Source: Nitrosospira sp. Nsp2 (GTDB taxonomy: Bacteria; Pseudomonadota; Gammaproteobacteria; Burkholderiales; Nitrosomonadaceae). From it: a stretch of DNA of 64,000 bases. Of this stretch, positions 19,281 to 51,877 are shown piece by piece. The notes beneath the pieces were generated by a model that was not told the origin of the DNA, did no database searches, and saw nothing but the letters and a program-made list of their open reading frames with translations. Position 1 is the stretch's first letter; every line of letters begins with the position of its first letter. The position numbers and the translations under genes were made by a program. The DNA lies in assembly GCF_003050965.1 (NCBI RefSeq), contig NZ_QAOU01000004.1:248001-312000 (forward strand), read 5' to 3'.

Positions 19281-22145
19281 TTATTGACATGACTCGCACC
19301 CTGGGTCATCGATAGCGCAAAGCTTCACATCGGTGGCCGGCACCATCGCGCTCATGCCAGCCATGTTCCCCTCCGCCGACACTGCATTCAAGGAACCGGC
19401 CTCGATAGTCGATTTTTCCGCTGACGTTGCTGCCAAGGAGCGCAGGTAATAGGTGGTTTTCAGGCCGCGCAACCAGGCCAGTTTATAAGTCTCATCGATT
19501 TTCTTCCCGGAAACGCCCGCCATATAAATATTCAGCGACTGCGCCTGATCGATCCATTTCTGCCGCCGTGCAGCTGCTTCAATCAGCCATTGCGGTTCGA
19601 TCTCGAAGGCGGTGGCATATAGAGTGCGGATATCGGCGGGTACCCGGTCTATCCTGCTTAACGAGCCATCAAAATACTTGAGATCAGAAAGCATCACCTC
19701 GTCCCAGAGCCCCAGCTTTTTCAGATCGTATACCAGATATTTGTGTACGGTGGTGAAATCACCGGACAAATTGGCTTTGACGTACAGATTGGTGAAGGAA
19801 GGTTCGATGCTCGCGGAAACACCCACGATGTTCGAGATGGTTGCGGTTGGCGCAATCGCCAGGCAATTGGAATTACGCATGCCGTACTGCCTGATGCGCT
19901 CGCGCAGCGCGTCCCATTCCAGAGTGGATGTGCGGTCTACCTCGACATATCCGCCCCGTTCTTCAAGCAGCAGATCGATACTATCCTGAGGCAGAATGCC
20001 GCGATCCCATAAACTGCCCCGGTAAGAGGCGTAACGGCCGCGCTCTTCGGCCAGTTCGGTCGAAGCCCAATAGGCGTGGTAGGCGACCGCTTCCATTGCG
20101 TGATCGGCAAATTCCACCGCCTCGTTAGAAGCGTAGGGGATGCGCATCATGTGCAGGCAGTCCTGAAAACCCATGATCCCCAGTCCTACCGGACGATGCT
20201 TGAGATTCGAATTGCGCGCCTTCGGCACGGCGTAGAAGTTGATATCGATCACGTTGTCCAGCATGCGCATGGCGGTGCGTACTGTCCGCTTGAGCTTGCC
20301 TGCGTCCAGTTCACCTCCATCATTGATGTGGGCGGCCAGATTGACGGAACCCAAATTGCACACGGCTATTTCATGCTCGTTTGTATTCAGTGTGATCTCG
20401 GTGCAGAGATTGGAGCTGTGCACCACGCCAACATGGTTTTGAGGGGAGCGAACATTGCAGGCGTCCTTGAACGTGATCCAGGGATGGCCGGTCTCGAAGA
20501 GCATGCTGAGCATCTTGCGCCATAACTGTTGCGCGGGAATCTTTTTGTGCAGGCTTAGCTCGCCCCGCGCCACTTTCTCCTCATAGGCAAGATAAGATTT
20601 TTCAAACTCCTTGCCGTATTTATCATGGAGATCGGGTACATCGGATGGAGAAAACAGCGTCCATTCACCTCCTTCCATCACTCGTTTCATGAACAAATCG
20701 GGAACCCAGGTGGCCGTATCCATATCATGAGTACGGCGGCGGTCATCGCCGGTGTTCTTGCGCAGCTCCAGGAATTCCTCGATGTCCAGATGCCATGATT
20801 CCAGATAGGCGCAGACCGCGCCCTTGCGCTTTCCCCCCTGGTTCACCGCGACCGCGGTGTCGGATACCACTTTCAGAAACGGTACGATGCCTTGCGATTT
20901 ACCGTTGGTGCCCTTAATGCGCGCGCCCATTGCGCGGACTGGCGTCCAGTCGTTCCCCAGCCCCCCGGCGTACTTTGCCAGCAGCGCGTTTTCCTTGATG
21001 GATTCGTAAATACCATCCAGATTATCAGGCACTGTCGTGAGATAGCACGAAGATAACTGCGAGCGTCGGGTGCCGGAATTGAACAAGGTCGGCGTGGAGC
21101 TCATGAAATCGAAGCTCGACAGCACGTGGTAGAACTCGATGGCGCGCCCTTCCCGGTCGATTTCGTTCAACGCCAGCCCCATCGCCACACGCATGAAGAA
21201 CGTCTGCGGCAGTTCAATGCGGTGTTCGCGCACGTGCAGGAAATACCGGTCATACAGGTTTTGCAGGCCCAGATAGCCGAATTTGAGGTCGCGGCTTGAA
21301 TCCAGCACCTTCGCCAGACGTGGCAGATCGAATTGGGCCAGACGCTCATCCAGCAACTCGGCCTCGATCCCGCGCTTGATGAATTCGGGGAAATATGTCT
21401 CATAGCGCTCCGCCATTTCCTGCTGCAGAGCCTCTTCGCCGAGCACCTCAAAACGGAGACTGTGCAGCAGCAACCTCGCCGTGACGTAGCTGTACGCAGG
21501 CTCTTTTTCGATTAACGCGCGCGCCGACAGGACAAGCGATCTGCGAACCTCATCCATCGGGACACCGTCGTACAAATCCTTCAAAGTGGCCTTGAGTATC
21601 AAGGGAGCGTTCACCACGTCCCCCAGGTCTTCGCAGCAGGACTCGATCAGCGTCAGCAGCCGGTTTGTATCCAGCTGAGTTTTATGGCCGTTTTCCAGTA
21701 CATTCAGAACGTTGGCTGCTTCCGCGGCCGCCATTTCTTTCTGTTGCGCCCGCTTCCGCGCGCGATCCTCGCGGTAAAGCACATAAGCGCGGGCGACATC
21801 GTGTTCTCCCGAACGCATCAATGCCAGCTCGACCTGATCCTGGATATCCTCGATATGGAAGGTTCCACCCGAGGGTTGGCGGCGAATCAATGCGTTCACC
21901 ACATCATCGGTCAGTCGCGCCACTACCTCGCGCACTCTGGCGGAAGCCGCACCTTGGCCGCCATTAACGGCTATGAATGCTTTAGTCATGGCAATGGAAA
22001 TCTTGCTGGGCTCGAACGCGGCCACGGAGCCATTGCGGCGGATAATCTTGTATTGGGAATAGCGCGAATCCTGGCCGGAGAGGGCTGAAGAAAACTCATA
22101 TCCGGTGACCGTCGGGCGGGCTGTATGATCTGTAGCAAGCTGCAT
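19281..22145 (-). CDS. nrdA: Ribonucleoside-diphosphate reductase class Ia, alpha (catalytic) subunit
   Basis: NrdA reduces NDPs to dNDPs. The roughly 954-residue protein has an N-terminal ATP-cone (about 25-115, from YKIIRRNG), the dATP/ATP overall-activity switch, then the ten-stranded barrel with the active-site Cys in LSSCYL, radical-site NLCTEI and the PTATISNI block, and a C-terminal redox pair CESCQ that is re-reduced by thioredoxin. The ATG at 22145 has AGGAGG at 7-nt spacing; the frame is open further upstream but crosses the promoter, so the longer form is rejected. Regulation is by two NrdR boxes upstream (see separate entries). Confidence 0.97.
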   Translation of the reverse strand: MQLATDHTARPTVTGYEFSSALSGQDSRYSQYKIIRRNGSVAAFEPSKISIAMTKAFIAVNGGQGAASARVREVVARLTDDVVNALIRRQPSGGTFHIEDIQDQVELALMRSGEHDVARAYVLYREDRARKRAQQKEMAAAEAANVLNVLENGHKTQLDTNRLLTLIESCCEDLGDVVNAPLILKATLKDLYDGVPMDEVRRSLVLSARALIEKEPAYSYVTARLLLHSLRFEVLGEEALQQEMAERYETYFPEFIKRGIEAELLDERLAQFDLPRLAKVLDSSRDLKFGYLGLQNLYDRYFLHVREHRIELPQTFFMRVAMGLALNEIDREGRAIEFYHVLSSFDFMSSTPTLFNSGTRRSQLSSCYLTTVPDNLDGIYESIKENALLAKYAGGLGNDWTPVRAMGARIKGTNGKSQGIVPFLKVVSDTAVAVNQGGKRKGAVCAYLESWHLDIEEFLELRKNTGDDRRRTHDMDTATWVPDLFMKRVMEGGEWTLFSPSDVPDLHDKYGKEFEKSYLAYEEKVARGELSLHKKIPAQQLWRKMLSMLFETGHPWITFKDACNVRSPQNHVGVVHSSNLCTEITLNTNEHEIAVCNLGSVNLAAHINDGGELDAGKLKRTVRTAMRMLDNVIDINFYAVPKARNSNLKHRPVGLGIMGFQDCLHMMRIPYASNEAVEFADHAMEAVAYHAYWASTELAEERGRYASYRGSLWDRGILPQDSIDLLLEERGGYVEVDRTSTLEWDALRERIRQYGMRNSNCLAIAPTATISNIVGVSASIEPSFTNLYVKANLSGDFTTVHKYLVYDLKKLGLWDEVMLSDLKYFDGSLSRIDRVPADIRTLYATAFEIEPQWLIEAAARRQKWIDQAQSLNIYMAGVSGKKIDETYKLAWLRGLKTTYYLRSLAATSAEKSTIEAGSLNAVSAEGNMAGMSAMVPATDVKLCAIDDPGCESCQ

Positions 22146-22220
22146 CTTGGAACCTCCTAATCTATATGGGAAAGGGCGATTTCCCGGCGGTTGAAGCTGA
22201 ACGATGTTTATCGTCCAACC

Positions 22221-22232
22221 ACTACATCTAGT
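22221..22232. promoter_or_regulatory. NrdR box, promoter-proximal
   Basis: ACTA-N4-TAGT palindrome (ACTACATCTAGT on +). On the - strand the 16-mer fits the NrdR consensus ACACWATATATWGTGT at 12 of 16 positions. It lies downstream of the predicted nrdA start point. Its centre is 32 bp from the second box, about three helical turns, as required for cooperative NrdR-dATP/ATP repression. Confidence 0.8.
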
Positions 22233-22252
22233 ATTAAAATTGCTCAACGTTT

Positions 22253-22264
22253 ACTAATAGTAGT
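22253..22264. promoter_or_regulatory. NrdR box overlapping the nrdA -10 element
   Basis: Second ACTA-N4-TAGT palindrome (ACTAATAGTAGT), overlapping the predicted -10 hexamer at 22257-22262, so bound NrdR would block RNA polymerase. It is inside the 46-bp segment duplicated in the integrative element at 47941-47986. Confidence 0.75.
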
Positions 22265-22285
22265 ACTGTGAGCAGATTAGTGCAA
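22257..22285 (-). promoter_or_regulatory. Predicted sigma70 promoter of nrdAB
   Basis: On the - strand, -35 TTGCAC (22285-22280) and -10 TACTAT (22262-22257) are separated by exactly 17 bp, giving a start near 22250 and a roughly 105-nt leader before the nrdA ATG. The leader contains the proximal NrdR box. Confidence 0.72.
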
Positions 22286-22427
22286 CCATTTTGTTACCAG
22301 CGGCAAGAGGTTTTTTGCGGGAGTGAGACCGACTATTAGCTGGCGTGATTTGCTACTTCTGCGCGGTAATTCAGCGTGTAATTAATTACCGCCCATGGAG
22401 GAACGGGGCCATACGCGACTCTTCCTA

Positions 22428-41200: not shown

Positions 41201-41246
41201 AATACGTGGCGAATTAGCTCAGTGGTTAGAGCAGCGGAATCATAAT
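41201..41246 (+). repeat. Left attachment site (attL), 46-bp direct repeat
   Basis: Identical to 48593-48638. It contains 7 bp upstream of the tRNA and tRNA positions 1-39 (acceptor 5' strand, D-arm, anticodon 5' stem and CAT loop). After 41246 the sequence diverges (AGGCAGGCTG instead of the tRNA 3' half), so this copy is a 39-nt tRNA fragment and cannot be functional. Confidence 0.95.
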
Positions 41247-41351: not shown

Positions 41352-42386
41352 ATGGCAACAGTTCGTAAGCTATCTTCCGGTAAATGGAATGCCCAGGTAC
41401 GTCGCAAAGGGCATCCTTCTATATCCAAGTCATTCACCTATGAGAAAGATGCTCATGTCTGGGTTCGTTCTATCGAATCTGATATGGATAGGGGGTCGTA
41501 TGTAAACCGATCTTCCGCAGACAACACTACATTAGGTGAAGCCCTTATTAGATATAGGGATGAGATTACCCCTAAGAAGAAAGGGAAGGATCAGGAACTA
41601 AGACGCATTTCACAATGGCTTAAGCATCCCTTAGCTAAAAGATCATTGTCTTCTTTAAAAGGGAAGGACTTTGCGAAGCATAGGGATGACCGACTATTGA
41701 AAAGATGTTCCGCTGGGACTTTGAGATTAGAACTGGCACTGATAAGCCACGTCTATACCATCGCATTGAAAGAATGGGGCATACCCGTCACTAACCCTGT
41801 TTCCTTAATTAGGAAGCCAACAGCCAATAATGCTAGGACAAGAAGACTAGAAGATGATGAGGAAGATAGATTATTAAATGCCTGTCGGCTGTCTAAGAAC
41901 ATCCTTCTATATCCAATAGTAGTATTAGCTATAGAAACTGCTATGAGACTGTCTGAGCTACTCAATATGGAATGGACAGACATTGATATTAAGAAACGTA
42001 TCATAGTCCTGTCGGACACTAAGAATGGAACAGCTAGAACCATTCCATTATCACTAAGGGCAATAGAAGTCCTTTCATCTATCCCTAAGCATATTGCCGA
42101 TAGGCGTGTCTTCTATAAATGGAAGCCTAGAAGTGATGCAATGAATGGCGCATTTAAAACTGCTGTGAAGAAAGCAGGTATGGATAACTTTCATTTCCAT
42201 GACCTACGCCATGAAGCTACATCTAGATTATTTGAGTTAGGGATGAATGTAATCGAAACTTCTGCTGTGACTGGACATAAAAGCCTTCAGATGTTGAGAA
42301 GATATACTCATATCAGTCCTAATGTCCTTATTAATAAATTAGATGGTCAATCTGACCGTCCTTTAAGATATTCTGATATAGGGTAG
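41352..42386 (+). CDS. Tyrosine recombinase / phage integrase
   Basis: The 344-residue protein mediates site-specific integration. Residues 1-50 look like an arm-binding domain, about 58-150 a core-binding SAM-like domain, and about 165-330 the catalytic domain with Arg199 (ETAMRLSELL), His283/Arg286 (HDLRHE), His309 (GHKS) and nucleophile Tyr318 (LRRYTH). It is adjacent to and transcribed away from attL, the usual place for an integrase. Codon use is AT-rich compared with the flanking chromosome. It has no close operon partner and ends at a strong terminator. Confidence 0.95.
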   Translation: MATVRKLSSGKWNAQVRRKGHPSISKSFTYEKDAHVWVRSIESDMDRGSYVNRSSADNTTLGEALIRYRDEITPKKKGKDQELRRISQWLKHPLAKRSLSSLKGKDFAKHRDDRLLKRCSAGTLRLELALISHVYTIALKEWGIPVTNPVSLIRKPTANNARTRRLEDDEEDRLLNACRLSKNILLYPIVVLAIETAMRLSELLNMEWTDIDIKKRIIVLSDTKNGTARTIPLSLRAIEVLSSIPKHIADRRVFYKWKPRSDAMNGAFKTAVKKAGMDNFHFHDLRHEATSRLFELGMNVIETSAVTGHKSLQMLRRYTHISPNVLINKLDGQSDRPLRYSDIG

Positions 42387-44884: not shown

Positions 44885-45037
44885 TTGGACAATCAGCGGG
44901 ACGATGACAAGCTAAGGGGCTTGTTAGAAACACTTAGGGAAGTAAGAGAAGTTCTAGAAAGCGTACCAACGATATGTGATAAATGGCTAAAAGATGACCG
45001 TCTCATTAGCAGAAGCACAACAATTCCAAGTTCATAG
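44885..45037 (+). CDS. Predicted 50-residue coiled-coil protein (TTG start)
   Basis: Between two genes a TTG-started frame encodes MDNQRDDDKLRGLLETLREV and continues as an amphipathic helix (heptad Leu/Val) to SVPTICDKWLKDD. AAAGG lies 9 nt upstream. It overlaps the start of the next gene by 44 bp in another frame. Small helical proteins of this type occur in phage genomes; no function can be stated. Confidence 0.45.
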   Translation: MDNQRDDDKLRGLLETLREVREVLESVPTICDKWLKDDRLISRSTTIPSS

Positions 45038-46166
45038 GAAATCAGACTATCCGCCAATGGCTGACCAGCTAAAGGCGGTATTCAATGAAGTCCTAGAATT
45101 ACGAAGAAGTAAACAACAGCAAGTCAGGAAAGCAGGAAGGGTGCGACAACACCTAGACGGATTGATCCTAGACCTATGGATCGCTTCAACGTATTCCAAT
45201 AATCCATGGCGGGCTATTAGTAGACGAAAAGAAGACTACCAAAAGGGGACGCGCTACCGGAAGTTGTTCCTGAAGCATTCGTTGCTGATGGGAGTCTTAG
45301 ATGACTTAGTTGAAATGGGTTACATAGACCAGAAGATTGGTTTTCATGATCGAACGACGAACAAGGGCTACCAGACCCGGATTAAATGCAGCGACAAACT
45401 GCTTAGTCTTATTTCTAAGTTCGATGTGAGGCAGATAACTAGAAATCCAGAAGTACCGGAAGAGGAGACCATTATTAAGAAGGATGCTTCTGGAAGGCTA
45501 GTAGATTACGTAGATGATCGTTTCACCAACGGAATGCGGGAAGATTTAACGGAATATAACAATATGGTACGCACTGCTGCAATTAATACAGATGATGTAG
45601 AACTGAGGTATGAAGTTGATCCGACTGCTACGACGATGCGACGTGTCTTTAATGAGGAAGGGGGTGGTAGGTTCTATGGGGGCTTCTGGCAACAGCTATC
45701 TAAAGAAGATAGATTGAAGTTGAAATTAGATGGGGAGGCTGTAGTTGAGAAGGATTATGTGGCGTTACATCCAGCCATAGCATATTCATTAGTGGGTTGG
45801 GGACTTGCCTTTGATCCTTACACAATTGAGGGGTGTGAACGGGGGGATGTGAAGAAGGCATTCCTGTGTCTATTCAATTGTAAATCTAGGAAGCAGGCTA
45901 TCAATACGATTAGGAGTGAGTTCCATTTGAAAGGTGCGGCTGATCTGTTACATCGGATTGAACAAGAACACCCGTTAATATCTGACTTCTTTTATAACCC
46001 TCCTTTTGGTCTGATGCTACAGAACACGGATTCTTGGCTGTGTGAAAAGGTATTGAAGAATCTGATGAAACAAAACATATTGGCTTTGCCCGTTCATGAC
46101 AGCTTTCTGGTTAAGAAGACTTACGAGCAACACTTACACGACGCGATGAGTGACAGTGCTATTTAA
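44994..46166 (+). CDS. Polymerase-like (palm-motif) element protein
   Basis: The 390-residue protein has an N-terminal helical region (about 1-150) and a C-terminal half with three ordered blocks: GGGRFYGGFWQQL (223-235); VVEKDYVALHPAIAYSL (250-266), like motif A (Asp254) of single-subunit polymerases; RGDVKKAFLCLFN (283-295), in the position of motif B (Arg/Lys); and ALPVHDSFLV (364-373), like motif C HDS (His368, Asp369) of T7-type RNA polymerase and family A DNA polymerases. I recall uncharacterised proteins with an E-x-DY-xx-LHP .. VHDS pattern. A replicase or primer-synthesising role is inference; the size is far below PolA. ATG with weak ribosome site. Confidence 0.6.
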   Translation: MTVSLAEAQQFQVHRKSDYPPMADQLKAVFNEVLELRRSKQQQVRKAGRVRQHLDGLILDLWIASTYSNNPWRAISRRKEDYQKGTRYRKLFLKHSLLMGVLDDLVEMGYIDQKIGFHDRTTNKGYQTRIKCSDKLLSLISKFDVRQITRNPEVPEEETIIKKDASGRLVDYVDDRFTNGMREDLTEYNNMVRTAAINTDDVELRYEVDPTATTMRRVFNEEGGGRFYGGFWQQLSKEDRLKLKLDGEAVVEKDYVALHPAIAYSLVGWGLAFDPYTIEGCERGDVKKAFLCLFNCKSRKQAINTIRSEFHLKGAADLLHRIEQEHPLISDFFYNPPFGLMLQNTDSWLCEKVLKNLMKQNILALPVHDSFLVKKTYEQHLHDAMSDSAI

Positions 46167-46276: not shown

Positions 46277-47062
46277 TCAGGCAGGCACTGGCGCGTATTG
46301 CTCAACAATATCTTTGTAATGTCTACGCATAAATTTTACAATTTCTTTCATTCGCAATACTTCAGTCGCTACACTGCCCGCCAGGTCAGGATCAGATCGC
46401 AAGATTAAAGCACGAAAACTTTCCGTTTTGAGTTCATCTTCCCACGGCACGCTTGCAGGAAACTTTTCCAGTTCTTCAAGCAGTCCAGCGGAAATACAAG
46501 CCTTTGACTCCTCACTTTCCAATTTAGTGATCATGTTTGCTGCCTTGTTATGCCAACTATATAACCGGTTAACTAGACTATGGAAATCTTCCAACACTGC
46601 GGGGGTAGGTATACCGTACCGGCTTATTGAATTGCGTATGAAATCCAACTCAGCAAGCAAGTCATTGGTTTTGCCAAATACACCTCGTCGCTTTTCTACG
46701 GAAATCTTTTCGCAATAAGCAGCTTTAGTTCTAAATGCCAGTTCAAAGTTTGCGTTTTGTGCAAGAACTGTTGACTCCTTAGCCAGCTGGCCAACTGTTT
46801 GAGTAAATCCTCCGAAGTCTGCCATCAACCCATAAATTATCAGCGCTGCGCTACCGACAATTTTTATTTTGGTTCGAAGACTTCCTTCCTCAAATTCTAT
46901 TTCAACTCTCACCCCTTTCCCAAACACATACTCAGCACGTTCCAAAAAATAAGACGTTAAATCTTTTTCTAATTTGGCTAGCGCCTCCTTGTCGTTAAAT
47001 ATGTCTATTTCAAAATGGGAATATGCTTCAGATAATATTTCTTTATCAATATAGTTCGCCAT
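46277..47062 (-). CDS. Element accessory protein of unknown function
   Basis: About 261 residues from the ATG at 47062 (MANYIDKEIL); a TTG further upstream would add 21 residues. It has one hydrophobic stretch (KIKIVGSAALIIYGLMADFG) near residue 70 and is otherwise charged and helical. No recognised domain. It is - strand, opposite to the main block, a position typical of accessory or anti-phage genes in phage satellites; that role is speculation. Confidence 0.65.
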   Translation of the reverse strand: MANYIDKEILSEAYSHFEIDIFNDKEALAKLEKDLTSYFLERAEYVFGKGVRVEIEFEEGSLRTKIKIVGSAALIIYGLMADFGGFTQTVGQLAKESTVLAQNANFELAFRTKAAYCEKISVEKRRGVFGKTNDLLAELDFIRNSISRYGIPTPAVLEDFHSLVNRLYSWHNKAANMITKLESEESKACISAGLLEELEKFPASVPWEDELKTESFRALILRSDPDLAGSVATEVLRMKEIVKFMRRHYKDIVEQYAPVPA

Positions 47063-47295
47063 ATGGATACCAGTGCAATTATTCGTACTTGTTATGTGCA
47101 GGCGTATGAAGCAGCCGCTATGCAAAAGCTTTTAACTGAAAATCCAGTGCCTTGTTGTCTTGCCGGTCTTGTGGCATCAATCAAAGCCGTATCTTCAGTA
47201 ATCTCATACTTCCAACACCGGTCAAAAATCAGATTCGCGAAGGGGGAGGTTATTAGATTCCCCCTCCATTATCCAGTCGGTACTTATTAACATTA

Positions 47296-47565
47296 TTACC
47301 AAGATCGACTTGGTTCATTAAGCCATGTCATGCAAGGATAATTAACGGATGCGCCTTGTTTCATAAGACGCACAACTAATACCACATCATTCGTGTCAAT
47401 TAGCCTTCGTAATGCGTCACGTATCTCTTCAATAGGTAATCCCGTTTCGATAAGCCAGACTGACTCAAGTTTCTTACAGTGCGTGAAGCGTTTCAGGTAA
47501 ACATGGACTGGGTCATAATTCCTGCCGGGGGCATTCAAGTCATACGTCACTAGATAGATCGACAA
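47296..47565 (-). CDS. Cas2-like / SinR-family small protein
   Basis: The 89-residue protein starts at TTG (47565) with GGAGA 8 nt upstream. MSIYLVTYDLNAPGRNYDPV followed by the second strand SVWLIETGLPIEEIRDALRR and DTNDVVLVVRL gives the ferredoxin-like fold shared by Cas2, VapD and SinR-type proteins. The SinR-type pattern (YLVTYDLN.P..Y .. SVWL..T..) fits best. No cas1, repeat array or toxin partner is visible, so it is not part of a CRISPR system. Possibly a nuclease or toxin-like regulator; catalytic role not shown. Confidence 0.78.
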   Translation of the reverse strand: MSIYLVTYDLNAPGRNYDPVHVYLKRFTHCKKLESVWLIETGLPIEEIRDALRRLIDTNDVVLVVRLMKQGASVNYPCMTWLNEPSRSW

Positions 47566-47940
47566 GGTATTTCTCCTATTAGGAAAAAGTACTAGACGGC
47601 CTATTGACTGTGAAAAGTGTTTGGGTCACTATTCGATTGCCAATAGACATGTTTGTATTAGGGCTGTTGGCCCCTACCGGCCTTTGATTAGTGACCCCGC
47701 CAAGGATATGCTAATCAAGGGCCTTATCTATGCTCACTTGACCGAAGGGCTTGTGTCAAATGAGCAGATTATCTTCTCATGGCTTTCTCCCCATTCTTTC
47801 CGCCAAGTCGGCTATTTGATGTGCAGGAAGTCCCATCTTCTTATTTCCTCATCTATATGCGAAATGGCTATACCCATGCGTTAGATGCTCAATAATAGAT
47901 ATACAATGTACCAGATTTAGTATTTTTATCCTTCTGGTGA

Positions 47941-47986
47941 ACTAATAGTAGTACTGTGAGCAGATTAGTGCAACCATTTTGTTACC
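47941..47986. repeat. 46-bp repeat, copy 2 (nrdA promoter and NrdR box inside the element)
   Basis: Perfect copy of 22253-22298. It preserves, on the - strand, -35 TTGCAC (47973-47968), 17-bp spacer, -10 TACTAT (47950-47945) and the ACTA-N4-TAGT NrdR box (47941-47952). It points toward the Cas2-like gene, 376 bp away. The proximal NrdR box of nrdA is not included. Confidence 0.95.
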
Positions 47987-48483
47987 CAGTGCAAAAATAT
48001 TTTACCGAATGACTTCAGCCGGTTATCACCTGATATAAAGATTCATCAATTTCATATGATGCGGATCGCATCAAATTCGCCATCGCCAGCAAACAGGTTG
48101 ATAGGCCAGACAATAGACGCGGCTCATCCTTCTAAAACTACATGTGGTATCTGCTGCGAACCGGAAGGTGAAGGGATGAAAGAAGGTTGATTAAGGCAAG
48201 TAGAAGTCTTGCCTCACAGAAAGAAGGGTAGCGCCACAGGCCTGACTGATCTGACGGTCGCTATAAAAATATCGATCCTGTTCGTCTGGTTCCTGATTCT
48301 ATAACACGTCATCCGTAGAAGGTTTCAGACAAGCTGATAGTTATATCAGCCCTGATAGCTAGGCAAGCTAGCCTTGATTCTCAACATTTCTGCTAGAAAA
48401 TATTTAGGTGCAATGCACTATATAAAGTGACCCCCTCACCCCCTTCTACCCCTTGCTATACATCTAATACACCTTACTTTCCA

Positions 48484-48592: not shown

Positions 48593-48638
48593 AATACGTG
48601 GCGAATTAGCTCAGTGGTTAGAGCAGCGGAATCATAAT
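48593..48638 (+). repeat. Right attachment site (attR), 46-bp direct repeat
   Basis: Identical to 41201-41246. It ends at tRNA position 39, in the anticodon arm, so the strand exchange lies within the anticodon-loop half of the gene. Confidence 0.95.
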
Positions 48639-48675
48639 CCGTTGGTCCCCAGTTCGAATCTGGGATTCGCTACCA
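48600..48675 (+). tRNA. tRNA with CAT anticodon (tRNA-Met or lysidine-type tRNA-Ile2)
   Basis: A 76-nt cloverleaf: acceptor GGCGAAT with ATTCGCT (G1-U72 wobble), D-arm GCTCAGTGGTTAGAGC, anticodon stem GCGGA/TCCGT with loop ATCATAA (anticodon CAT), T-arm CCCAG TTCGAAT CTGGG, and encoded CCA. CAT can be elongator Met or, when C34 is modified by TilS, Ile2; I cannot separate them by eye. Positions 1-39 are also the attB sequence of the element. Confidence 0.95.
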
Positions 48676-48812: not shown

Positions 48813-49353
48813 TTTACTGCCCTGTCCACTTTCCACACATGAACTCTTGTGTAGGTATTGATCTTGTTCGCGCTATACGCGCGGCTTCCTCAACTGGCGT
48901 TTCTGAGTTCATCCACCGCCACACATCCTCCGGCGTTAGCACAACCGGCCTACGGTTATGAATATCTACCATTCCCGCCCCTGAAACTTCTGTAACGATA
49001 ACGAACCAACCTCAACGGTCTGGTGGATATATGGTCTTAAGTTATTCAACCCTGCCATGAAAATAGGCTTATTCACTTTGCACGTAATGTACCAAGGCTG
49101 CTTCTTTCCATTCTCAACGGTCCGTTCATACCACCCCCCGGCAGGAATGATTGCTCGCCCTTCCCGAAACAAGTGCCGGAAATATCGTCCTGTTAGCGAT
49201 TTCTCTACCCATGCGCATATCCACGGTTTCTTTTTCTCAGCCGCCTCTTTAGAGGTCCTATAGCCCCGGGTCACACCGATGAATAGTAATTCGCAGTCGT
49301 GAAGCAAATCATCCATGGACATTGACCGGGGCGGTATTGTAGAAGGGATGCGT
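48813..49353 (-). pseudogene. SRAP (YedK/HMCES-type) domain gene, frameshifted
   Basis: Family: proteins that cross-link to abasic sites in single-stranded DNA through an N-terminal Cys2. Pieces of the domain are clear but lie in different frames. FYNTAP (about 49344-49330) is followed by a stop; the central part GRAIIPAGGWYERTVENGKK .. PIFMAGLNNL is open in another frame (48966-49322); then FVIVTEVSGAGMVDIHNRRPV, with the conserved His, continues in a third frame to a stop at 48813. Thus at least two frameshifts, and the N-terminal MCGR active-site Cys is not seen. It should be inactive. It lies 138 bp beyond the tRNA, in the same accessory strip. Confidence 0.8.
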
Positions 49354-49446: not shown

Positions 49447-49938
49447 TTACATTTGTCTACGTTGGTGTCGCCACGCCGAAGGTGGGATGGGGGACGGGTC
49501 ACTCCACAGGCCACGTTTTGCTACCTTTGCATGGTGCTGCAAGACGTAAAGTTTATTATCCCTCGCGTATTTTCGATATACCCAAGCCATGCCGCGATTA
49601 ACCTGTTCTGCATTAGCATCTAAGCCAGCACATTTAACACGGGCGACCGTTCGTTTATCGCGGTCTGATGCTCGTGGAATGACTTCTGCCTCCTTGCCGA
49701 AACACAGGTTTGTGAGTGACTGCTTGGAGTTGGTACCGAAGGGCTGATCTTTCTCAGGCGCATCAATCTCGGCTAACCGGATTTTGTGCTGCTGCCTTGA
49801 TGCGGTAAGAACTGTCAAGGTGTCGCCATCTGCTATGCCCACAACCTTTCCGCTAAACGTTTCCGCCTGTGCTACGGACACGTAGAAAGTGCATGTTGCG
49901 ATGATTGCGAATCGAAATGCTGAGTTGAAGTCTTGCAT
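49447..49938 (-). CDS. Secreted thermonuclease (SNase-like)
   Basis: The roughly 163-residue protein has a signal peptide (MQDFNSAFRFAIIATCTFYV .. VAQA, cut after AQA) and the SNase fold: GIADGDTLTV, the catalytic Arg/Asp block IRLAEIDAPEKDQPFG, and RGMAWVYRKY near the C-terminus. Such nucleases cleave DNA and RNA at phosphodiester bonds with Ca2+. Predicted periplasmic or exported. Two upstream in-frame Met are possible (49938 or 49968); 49938 best fits the signal peptide. Confidence 0.85.
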   Translation of the reverse strand: MQDFNSAFRFAIIATCTFYVSVAQAETFSGKVVGIADGDTLTVLTASRQQHKIRLAEIDAPEKDQPFGTNSKQSLTNLCFGKEAEVIPRASDRDKRTVARVKCAGLDANAEQVNRGMAWVYRKYARDNKLYVLQHHAKVAKRGLWSDPSPIPPSAWRHQRRQM

Positions 49939-50368
49939 TTGAGCAGAGCTCGATATGGCTGATCTCAATTTTGAAACGATACTACAAATCTTCAGGGATT
50001 ATTAGCGTCGATGTCAGGTCTTCCCCGATATACCCCTACTTATAGGATTATCGTTCTTATACCCCCTTACAGTGTCAGAGTTAGAGGCAATGCTGTAGGG
50101 CGGAAGAACGGAACTTTTAATCCTCTATGTGAATAAATGAAAGGGAAAGCCGCGTAGTGCCAGATGAAGCACCTACGGATTCAACAATGCCGTTTTGGAA
50201 CCCTTTCTCGGGGTTTATCCGCTAACTACCATTCGAGTAGCCCGCTACCTCATCAGGTAGCCATAAGATTCGTGTGGTGTTTAGCACAGATCATCCTGCG
50301 AGCCGGAGTTATCGTGGGTTCGCGTCGTAATTGAACGCTGTCTTTAATCTCAAATGAGGAGAATTATC
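49939..50368. other. Intergenic region upstream of the RTX gene
   Basis: 430 bp without a gene. It includes the hairpin GCTACCT-CATC-AGGTAGC (50244-50261) and otherwise no recognisable element; it should carry the promoter of the RTX gene, about 100 bp upstream of its ATG. Confidence 0.4.
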
Positions 50369-51124
50369 ATGGCAACAATACATGGGACAAAATATAACGA
50401 TAATGACACGTGGCAGTGGGTAAAGGATGGGCCCATCATCCCGCCCCGCCCCATCGACCCCTTGCCCCCCATCGACCCCTTGCCCCCCATCGACCTCGGC
50501 CCCTCCGATCCCCGGCCCCTCGTCGAACTCTTCCGCCCCATCGACCCCTTGCCCCCCATCGACCCCTGGCCCCCCTTTCGCCACAAGGAATTCTTTCCGT
50601 CATTAAAGGGCACAAAAAACGATGACACCATCTCCGGTTACAAGGGAAATGACAAACTTTACGGTTATGGTGGAAATGACACTCTTTACGGTGGTCCCGG
50701 CAACGATGATCTCTACGGTGGGACCGGGAACGATACCCTGGCTGGCGGGCCGGGAAAAGACACTCTTAAAGGGGGGGATGGAGCAGACAAGTTTGATTTC
50801 GATTCAGTCAGTGAGAGCCCTGCGGGAGGGCAGTACGATACCATCACTGATTTTAGTAAAGACAGATGGGAGTGGGACCCTCTGGTCCGACCGCTTCGTC
50901 ACCTAATCCCAGGGGATAAGATCGACCTTTCCACAATTGATGCAAATGTGAACTTGTTGGCGGCAGGGAATCAAAGCTTCCGTTCGGGCCAGTTGTCATA
51001 TGATGCTTTCACGGGAGTTCTAACCGCGAACGTATATGGTGGCGATGACGTTCAAGTAAAAGTGGTCGGTGTCGACGGCTTGCCCGTCTCGGGATTCAAT
51101 CCTAGCTTAGACGTGATTGCGTGA
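50369..51124 (+). CDS. RTX-type Ca2+-binding protein with proline-rich repeats
   Basis: The 251-residue acidic protein has two parts. Residues about 22-75 are a Pro/Asp/Ile-rich repeat (PIDPLPPIDPLPPIDLGPSD..) encoded by near-identical 18-bp DNA repeats. Residues about 85-140 contain the RTX nonapeptides GGxGxDxLx (e.g. GYGGNDTLYGGPGNDDLYGG). The rest resembles the C-terminal part of serralysin-type and other type-1-secreted proteins (DTITDFSKD .. GDKIDLSTID .. GQLSYDAFTGVL). Secretion by a type I system is likely, but no ABC exporter gene is adjacent. GAGGAG precedes the ATG at 50369. Confidence 0.85.
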   Translation: MATIHGTKYNDNDTWQWVKDGPIIPPRPIDPLPPIDPLPPIDLGPSDPRPLVELFRPIDPLPPIDPWPPFRHKEFFPSLKGTKNDDTISGYKGNDKLYGYGGNDTLYGGPGNDDLYGGTGNDTLAGGPGKDTLKGGDGADKFDFDSVSESPAGGQYDTITDFSKDRWEWDPLVRPLRHLIPGDKIDLSTIDANVNLLAAGNQSFRSGQLSYDAFTGVLTANVYGGDDVQVKVVGVDGLPVSGFNPSLDVIA

Positions 51125-51490: not shown

Positions 51491-51877
51491 ATGAAATTCT
51501 CATCTATATGCACTACGCGATCGTCCGCATCCATGCTGATTCTTGCCTGTACCGTGTTTTTGGGAGTTTCTGGCATTGCGCATGCCCAAAGTAGCAGTTC
51601 TTCCGGGCAAAGCGGCCATGCTAAGGAGAACCCCGCCGACCATAGCGACAAGGACGACCCAATCAAAGGTCACACCGGGGAAGGCTACACCGAAAAAAGC
51701 TCCACCGAAAAGAGTAAGGCGGGTTCAACAAAACGAATCGGTAAGGAGAACCCCGCCGACCATAGCGACAAGGACGACCCAATCAAAGGCCACACGGGGG
51801 AAGGCTACACCGAAAAAAGCTCCACCGAAAAGGGTAAGGATGGGTCAAAAAGAATGGGTCCAAAAGATAAATATTAG
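51491..51877 (+). CDS. Secreted hydrophilic protein with a duplicated 40-residue repeat
   Basis: A roughly 128-residue protein with a signal peptide (MKFSSICTTRSSASMLILAC .. AHA) and a highly charged, Gly/Lys/Asp/Glu-rich mature part. The block KENPADHSDKDDPIKGHTGE then GYTEKSSTEK occurs twice (DNA period 120 bp, 51622-51720 and 51742-51840, nearly identical). This resembles small hydrophilin-like or stress-induced periplasmic proteins. AGGAA precedes the ATG. Function unknown. Confidence 0.75.
   Translation: MKFSSICTTRSSASMLILACTVFLGVSGIAHAQSSSSSGQSGHAKENPADHSDKDDPIKGHTGEGYTEKSSTEKSKAGSTKRIGKENPADHSDKDDPIKGHTGEGYTEKSSTEKGKDGSKRMGPKDKY
51622..51840 (+). repeat. Tandem 120-bp duplication inside the hydrophilic protein gene
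   Basis: The 99-bp segment 51622-51720 recurs at 51742-51840 with only a handful of mismatches (e.g. GGTCACACC versus GGCCACACG). The high identity points to a recent in-frame duplication. Confidence 0.9.

Follow-up and report, generated by a model that had tools for sequence, protein, structure and literature searches.

Phage satellites and tRNA islands such as the P4-like elements and the PICI carry an integrase, attachment repeats at a tRNA gene and interchangeable cargo near the attachment site. The element described here is alike in these features and in its size of approximately 7.4 kb, and differs in that its marker family (phrog_4756) is without an assigned function, in that a dependence on a helper phage would be hypothetical, and in that its cargo promoter appears to come from a housekeeping gene of the host. 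Gene conversion is known to occur where a host and a mobile element carry copies of one sequence. The locus has in common with gene conversion in general a short perfect tract within diverged homologues, whereas here a promoter and operator would be affected and the promoter tracks the host lineage across genera.

NrdR sites consist of two boxes with a spacer of 15-16 bp, and spacers of 14-17 bp bind, according to the accessible part of PMC12051234. The NrdR-controlled ribonucleotide reductase promoters treated in the accessible parts of PMC12051234 and PMC12176259 share with this locus a box pair at 31-32 bp and an NrdR gene in the genome, but the promoter here heads the cargo of an element and not an nrd operon; behind it lie a hairpin module and Cas2-like cargo, with no ribonucleotide reductase gene. 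A literature search of titles and abstract openings, with most subscription journals outside its scope, gave no description among the matches listed of NrdR, an nrdA promoter or host-promoter capture in phages, satellites or mobile elements, none among the matches listed that linked NrdR, dNTP and anti-phage defence, and nothing on point among the matches listed on Nitrosospira islands.

The integrated element and its nrdA leader

The window (the whole stretch of 64,000 nucleotides of Nitrosospira sp. Nsp2 that was analysed) contained an island of approximately 7.4 kb in tRNA-Met, between 46-bp attachment repeats that were located by repeat comparison at 41201..41246 (left) and 48593..48638 (right, overlapping the intact tRNA-Met at 48600-48675). 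Its order was a tyrosine integrase (41352..42386, + strand, from protein family matches), several small genes, a 390-aa protein that marks the element family (44994..46166, + strand; phrog_4756, no function given in PHROGs), two cargo genes on the minus strand, a hairpin module and the promoter, which is followed by the attachment site. The integrase and the flanking attachment repeats at a tRNA are as in a tRNA-integrated satellite-like element, and four relatives had 5-6.5 kb between direct repeats. The 390-aa marker was found in 11 of the 125 family genomes and at 35 loci in named genomes, including Nitrosospira, Nitrosomonas, Thiobacillus and alphaproteobacteria. Distant relatives of this protein were observed in 128 phage records and no match was obtained in viral contigs; its motifs DYSALHP and LPVHDSF are presumably reminiscent of polymerases. 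In the same-species genome G101 this tRNA-Met site was also occupied by a relative of the element, of which the middle including the promoter was missing beside a transposase (IS3 type by reading of the sequence).

Of the two cargo genes, the one nearer to the captured promoter encodes an 89-aa Cas2-like protein (47296..47565, − strand; phrog_1090, 9e-23; PADLOC Cas2b, 4e-4) and the second a 282-aa protein (46277..47125, − strand; no Pfam match; phrog_31894, 4e-19). The Cas2-like protein scored 15.4 bits with Pfam PF09827, under the curated cut-off of 23.8, and its 27 matches to solved structures were SUMO matches with E values of at least 0.24 which were taken as noise. No Cas1 was found among the element proteins scanned. 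A second Cas2-like gene, 31% identical, was observed elsewhere in the window's own genome (G000, contig C1, 875986-876243) and also in G101.

The host nrdA was located at 19281..22145 (− strand) with its ATG at 22145 behind AGGAGG; the ORF caller gave a longer open frame from a TTG at 22247, upstream of this likely start. The gene was identified as nrdA (PRK07207 equivalog, 1763 bits) and adjoins nrdB. By alignment, its promoter and leader, the source sequence, extend over 22146..22345 (− strand). Searching the NrdA frame in 23 genomes of the genus returned one nrdA in each and two leader-only places in G001.

As the earlier note had reported, the element sequence at 47941..47986 (− strand) was identical base for base to 22253-22298 (− strand) of the host nrdA promoter, in equal orientation, and the block includes NrdR box 1 and the hexamers TTGCAC and TACTAT. 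The 46-mer occurred at exactly two sites in its own 3.46-Mb genome with up to 3 mismatches allowed (reversed-pattern control, 0), and its 33-bp core in none of 100 other genomes at the same tolerance, a set outside of which stands the same-species G101. That the 46-mer is a repeat dispersed over many unrelated places, which had been named beforehand as the finding that would speak against the reading, was therefore rejected. The nrdA leader of G101 also had the 46-mer, which shows that the host form extends beyond the strain of the window. Outside the block, 104 of 189 aligned columns of the element and host leaders agreed (55%), compared with 46 of 46 inside. For a run of 46 bases at 55% identity the rough probability is 1e-10; chance had rightly been called negligible and was ruled out as the origin of the match.

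The 46-bp identity is one patch inside a longer homology, and the element carries the whole nrdA leader (47780..48003, − strand, by alignment; diverged outside the block). The alignment covered the promoter, two NrdR boxes, the 5'UTR, the ribosome site, the start codon and approximately 10 codons. An ORF of 19 codons on the retained nrdA start codon (47777..47836, − strand) ends in GRKP-stop, as in one of the two G001 copies described below (G001a). The single ACTA-N4-TAGT box that had been described was present in the block as the predicted core of box 1 (47941..47952, − strand, 8/8), but a second NrdR box lies just outside of it, with its predicted core at 47910..47921 (− strand, 7/8), 31 bp start to start from box 1, which gives a spacer of 15 bp taking boxes as 16 bp. 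The host boxes at 22253-22264 and 22221-22232 (the second also 8/8) are 32 bp apart start to start; by comparison, box 2 of the window lacks one matching core position and stands one base closer to box 1. The spacing of 31 bp in the window, or of 32 bp in four other copies, fits the rule of a 15-16-bp spacer in the accessible part of PMC12051234. No box pair of at least 15/16 was found in 100 base-shuffled windows, compared with two in the real window. A gene for NrdR (TIGR00244 above cut-off) was present in six of the seven genomes scanned, the window's own among them, G040 (80% complete) being the one without.

The hexamers previously proposed as −35 (TTGCAC) and −10 (TACTAT) were present, but their assignment is uncertain because TTGCAC-N17-TACTAT occurred in just 3 of the 23 nrdA leaders of the genus, while 17 of the 23 use TTGACA-N17-(C/G)AC(T/C)AT, with the second hexamer ending approximately 10 bp upstream of box 1. 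A simple sigma-70 scan, confined to 47200-48400 of the window, gave 0 promoter-like sites compared with a mean of 3.1 in shuffles. No minus-strand terminator-like site was found by a simple scan between the window promoter and the cargo.

Histories of promoters and downstream modules

A total of seven copies of the leader were identified, the window copy and six more. Besides the window, both boxes were kept on contigs C33 and C20 of G001, C1 of G012 and C3 of G034, with varied cargo, while the copies on C75 of G025 and C44 of G040 were decayed relics (6 of 16 box core positions changed in each) around which no cargo or backbone was recognised. An element backbone was recognisable for three of the seven copies (window, G001 C20 and G012) and none was recognised for the G034 copy, which was 90% identical to the G034 nrdA leader over 177 bp. 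One of the G001 places is a nearly whole sister element beside tRNA-Lys, with its integrase cut by the contig end and a cargo of a 47-aa and a 393-aa protein. At the other were a Cas2-like protein, 64% identical to that of the window, and a KAP-type NTPase (PF07693, 1.1e-12; PADLOC PDC-S20, 1e-25), of which only the first part remained because it was cut short near the contig end. The G012 element at tRNA-Lys was partly broken, and its copy of the nrdA promoter was of the type found in the species group of G012. It was also observed that similar lysine-rich proteins of 47 and 49 aa (SGN...TGQF...TTV.ET...KKK; locus L039, 6075-6215, and locus L065, 7306-7452) head the cargo of two elements; they matched nothing in Pfam or PADLOC.

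In the window and both G001 copies the homology ran from the promoter to the start codon with the same 3' junction, and in the G012 and G034 copies the nrdA similarity ended right after box 2. The statement that the promoter aims at the Cas2-like gene is true for the window, but the cargo differs among the relatives, so the conserved unit is the promoter with a hairpin module and not the promoter with Cas2. Two conserved kinds of module, R1 and R2, were found downstream of the promoter, each common to different genera. Module R1 (47566..47791, − strand) was common to the window, the two G001 places, G025 and G040, and its fold in the window has arms at 47765-47755/47742-47732, 47723-47711/47691-47679 and 47645-47639/47608-47602 (− strand). 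A covariance search with R1 in 125 genomes gave hits in G025 (E 5e-16) and G040 (E 1e-14) and one weak extra match (E 0.009), which was the opposite strand of a G001 place, while the only matches to R2 were in G012 and G034, the two genomes its model came from. Within R2 (L065, 6998-7176; L114, 9727-9904) a short ORF with a near-identical hydrophobic LINLRLVxFAALIL was observed in the two genera. Both modules searched by DNA in 399 genomes of the order, few of them of the family, matched only the window's own genome, and two module strings had no match in viral contigs.

The loop of helix 2 of R1 (window 47710-47692, with counterparts in L039 and L129) was reverse-complemented in the second G001 copy (G001b) and in G040 relative to the window, G001a and G025, and the loops of G001a and G025 were identical (18/18). 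The inversion speaks for a function of at least the helix 2 hairpin as DNA and not as RNA. The loop has the appearance of a segment between inverted repeats that flips.

Promoters were compared over approximately 104 bp around the boxes with 33 host leaders, those of the G025 and G040 elements being anchored by hand on one string. The copies resembled the nrdA leaders of three different host lineages. Both G001 copies were closest to the G001 nrdA (87% and 93%), the G034 copy was closest to that of G034 (86%), and the G012 copy was closest to those of G012, G021 and G015 (84, 83 and 83%), although by a second measure its own host ranked third of 31 (70/86 vs 73 and 72). The decayed copies were weakly closest to G025 (67%) and G034 (66-67%), the G040 copy having 67% identity to the G034 leader compared with 60% to its own host. 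For the window copy the G001 host (74%) was slightly above its own (G000, 72%) and G101 (72%). Inside the 46-bp patch the window agreed with its own host at 46 of 46 positions and with the G001 host at 41 of 46, and was thus exactly G000/G101-like.

A promoter tree was built from 26 host and 7 element promoters, and seven Nitrosomonas leaders were left out because of their poor box pairs. A single clade of element promoters was rejected (p-AU 8.5e-7), as was a grouping of G012 with G034 (p-AU 2.5e-93). The tree placed the window copy with the G001 copies, and the likeness of the window to its own host was confined to the 46-bp patch. In contrast to the promoters, the sequences downstream were alike between copies, with 82% identity between the G012 and G034 copies (57% in the promoter) and 95% between the window and G001a (68% in the promoter). 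Since the promoters are like those of the host lineage and the modules are alike across genera, promoter and module have different histories, and a module common to genera behind a promoter of the local nrdA lineage suggests that the promoter was either replaced through homologous recombination (gene conversion) or captured anew. The short perfect patch would be best explained by conversion with the resident nrdA as donor, and recapture could be the origin of the G012 and G034 copies, in which the similarity ends right after box 2.

Proposed regulation and alternative explanations

Capture from the host nrdA region, one of the origins offered in the earlier note, was supported by the leader homology, the mosaic structure and the lineage-specific promoters, and the option of the element promoter as a control switch plausibly belongs together with it. 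With the copies, their mosaic structure and lineage-specific promoters, the box pairs and the co-directional cargo established, we infer that gene conversion was the mechanism, that NrdR controls the promoter, that the cargo is expressed and that it may have a role in defence. On balance it is probable, judging from the sequence, that an nrdA promoter was captured, was brought back into line with the host lineage through recombination or a new capture, and puts the cargo under NrdR/dATP control. The captured host promoter and leader at the cargo end of the element would be oriented to transcribe the hairpin module and then the cargo (the Cas2-like and the 282-aa gene). With both boxes kept, the host NrdR would hold the cargo down when dATP is ample, and a fall in dATP through replication demand, damage or phage takeover would release it. 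The promoter would be exchanged by gene conversion or recaptured, the last exchange in the window being the 46-bp patch.

Over all seven copies the NrdR box cores differed from those of their own host at 14 of 112 positions compared with 136 of 608 elsewhere (p 0.016). The corresponding figures for the five copies with both boxes were 2 of 80 and 77 of 437 (p 1.4e-4), which is partly circular, and without the G034 copy, which was found through its boxes, 2 of 64 and 63 of 350 (p 0.0012). The seven-copy figure is the fairer one because keeping the boxes defines the five. Regulated expression of the cargo is favoured because the boxes were kept and spared, NrdR is encoded, the cargo lies on the same strand and no terminator was seen.

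A neutral relic, with an nrdA leader acquired by accident, patched since by ordinary gene conversion and of no use to the cargo, is an unlikely account. It would agree with the divergence of the window copy at 45% of the columns outside the patch, with the damage to its box 2, with the decay of copies seen in the G025 and G040 relics and with the modest sparing of the boxes over seven copies, but not with two different downstream modules that each have a local nrdA promoter at different junctions, nor with box cores that are somewhat spared and cargo that lies downstream on the same strand in all five copies with both boxes. Still less likely is a leader that is itself the product, as hairpin RNA, short leader peptide or replication primer or origin, with the cargo genes as passengers. 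The inverted loop of hairpin 2 in two of the five copies points to a function at the DNA level, and helix 1 hardly varies and is uninformative; no family in Rfam 15 was above the gathering score for the modules except tRNA, and a known RNA family was rejected on this result. Helix 2 does have three pairs changed on both sides among the five sequences, a number that 87 of 500 shuffles reach, although its covariation score was reached in 1 of 500. A product in the leader would further agree with the R1 fold (z −5.0; 0 of 200 shuffles as good), with cargo that varies between elements and with R1 DNA at 95% between the window and G001a when the Cas2-like proteins are at 64%.

The box cores, being better kept than their surroundings, could also have served as an operator decoy, the NrdR sites of a replicating element titrating NrdR and thereby raising the host ribonucleotide reductase; we give this little credence, as the promoter, ribosome site and start codon that three copies have retained would be superfluous in a decoy. 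The earlier note had also considered that an nrd gene was once on the element and was then lost. The nrdA promoter and first codons are present as such a loss would leave them, but the promoters are of three different nrdA lineages, two copies (G012 and G034) lose the similarity right after box 2, no copy matches beyond approximately the first 17 nrdA codons, and the eight element proteins of the window had no nrd match in Pfam or NCBIfam, so this origin was rejected as barely credible.

If the captured and re-matched promoter does control the cargo, mobile elements would adapt to a new host by taking up that host's version of a housekeeping promoter. Such elements would read the DNA-precursor pool of the cell via NrdR, which would connect accessory genes, and perhaps genes against phage, with the sensing of dNTP; a host-matched operator before element-specific DNA would be a signature for finding other captured switches. 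A role of the cargo in defence against phage is a guess, drawn from family matches that are weak or partial. More doubtful than the capture, although conceivable, is that the element family repeatedly installs the local nrdA promoter in place of the one before its accessory and possibly defensive cargo, and so maintains a self-updating, host-tuned NrdR/dATP switch for infection or replication stress.

Distribution among relatives and neighbouring sequences

Box pairs were scanned with up to 1 mismatch in all 125 family genomes. Within the genus, 22 of the 23 genomes had a site at nrdA, and the only genomes with extra sites were G001 (2) and G012 (1); because of its spacing of 31, the copy in the window escaped the scan. 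The reversed-pattern control had hits in 3 of the 23 genus genomes and 37 of the 125 family genomes, so single box-pair matches elsewhere can be chance. One match in the sister genera was near-identical in G034, G028 and G031, and in G034 lies between a TetR-like and an efflux gene (names by reading); further sister-genus matches were on C71 of G039 and C90 of G164.

When the nrdA leader of each host was compared by BLAST with the element locus in that host, no copy was found in the Nitrosomonas loci of G103, G151, G048, G057, G160, G156 and G136 (the leader start of G103 was extrapolated), nor was the G034 leader found in the G034 element on C9. A scan for NrdR pairs in 46 loci (653,932 bases) gave only the two pairs already known, at L114 and at L140 (identical with locus L039), and would miss boxes of the Nitrosomonas type because the pair was found in only 2 of 7 Nitrosomonas nrdA leaders. 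The non-coding DNA in the corresponding slot of five relatives (four Nitrosomonas and one Thiobacillus), searched in their own genomes, gave 5 self and 6 partial matches, the latter on element-bearing contigs (4) or elsewhere in G103 (2), and no match was traced to nrdA. On these results for the Nitrosomonas loci and the slots, the habit is so far found only in Nitrosospira and one sister genus.

In the window, a C-rich stretch near the attachment site (48428-48470) resembles, by eye, stretches in the slots of the Nitrosomonas and Thiobacillus relatives. To the right of tRNA-Met lie a SRAP-like gene (48966-49322, PF02586) and a gene of a phage endonuclease family (49447-49968, phrog_452), in this order. 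Finally, two tandem arrays were observed, of 18 bp × 7.2 at 50449-50575 and of 120 bp × 1.8 at 51622-51839.
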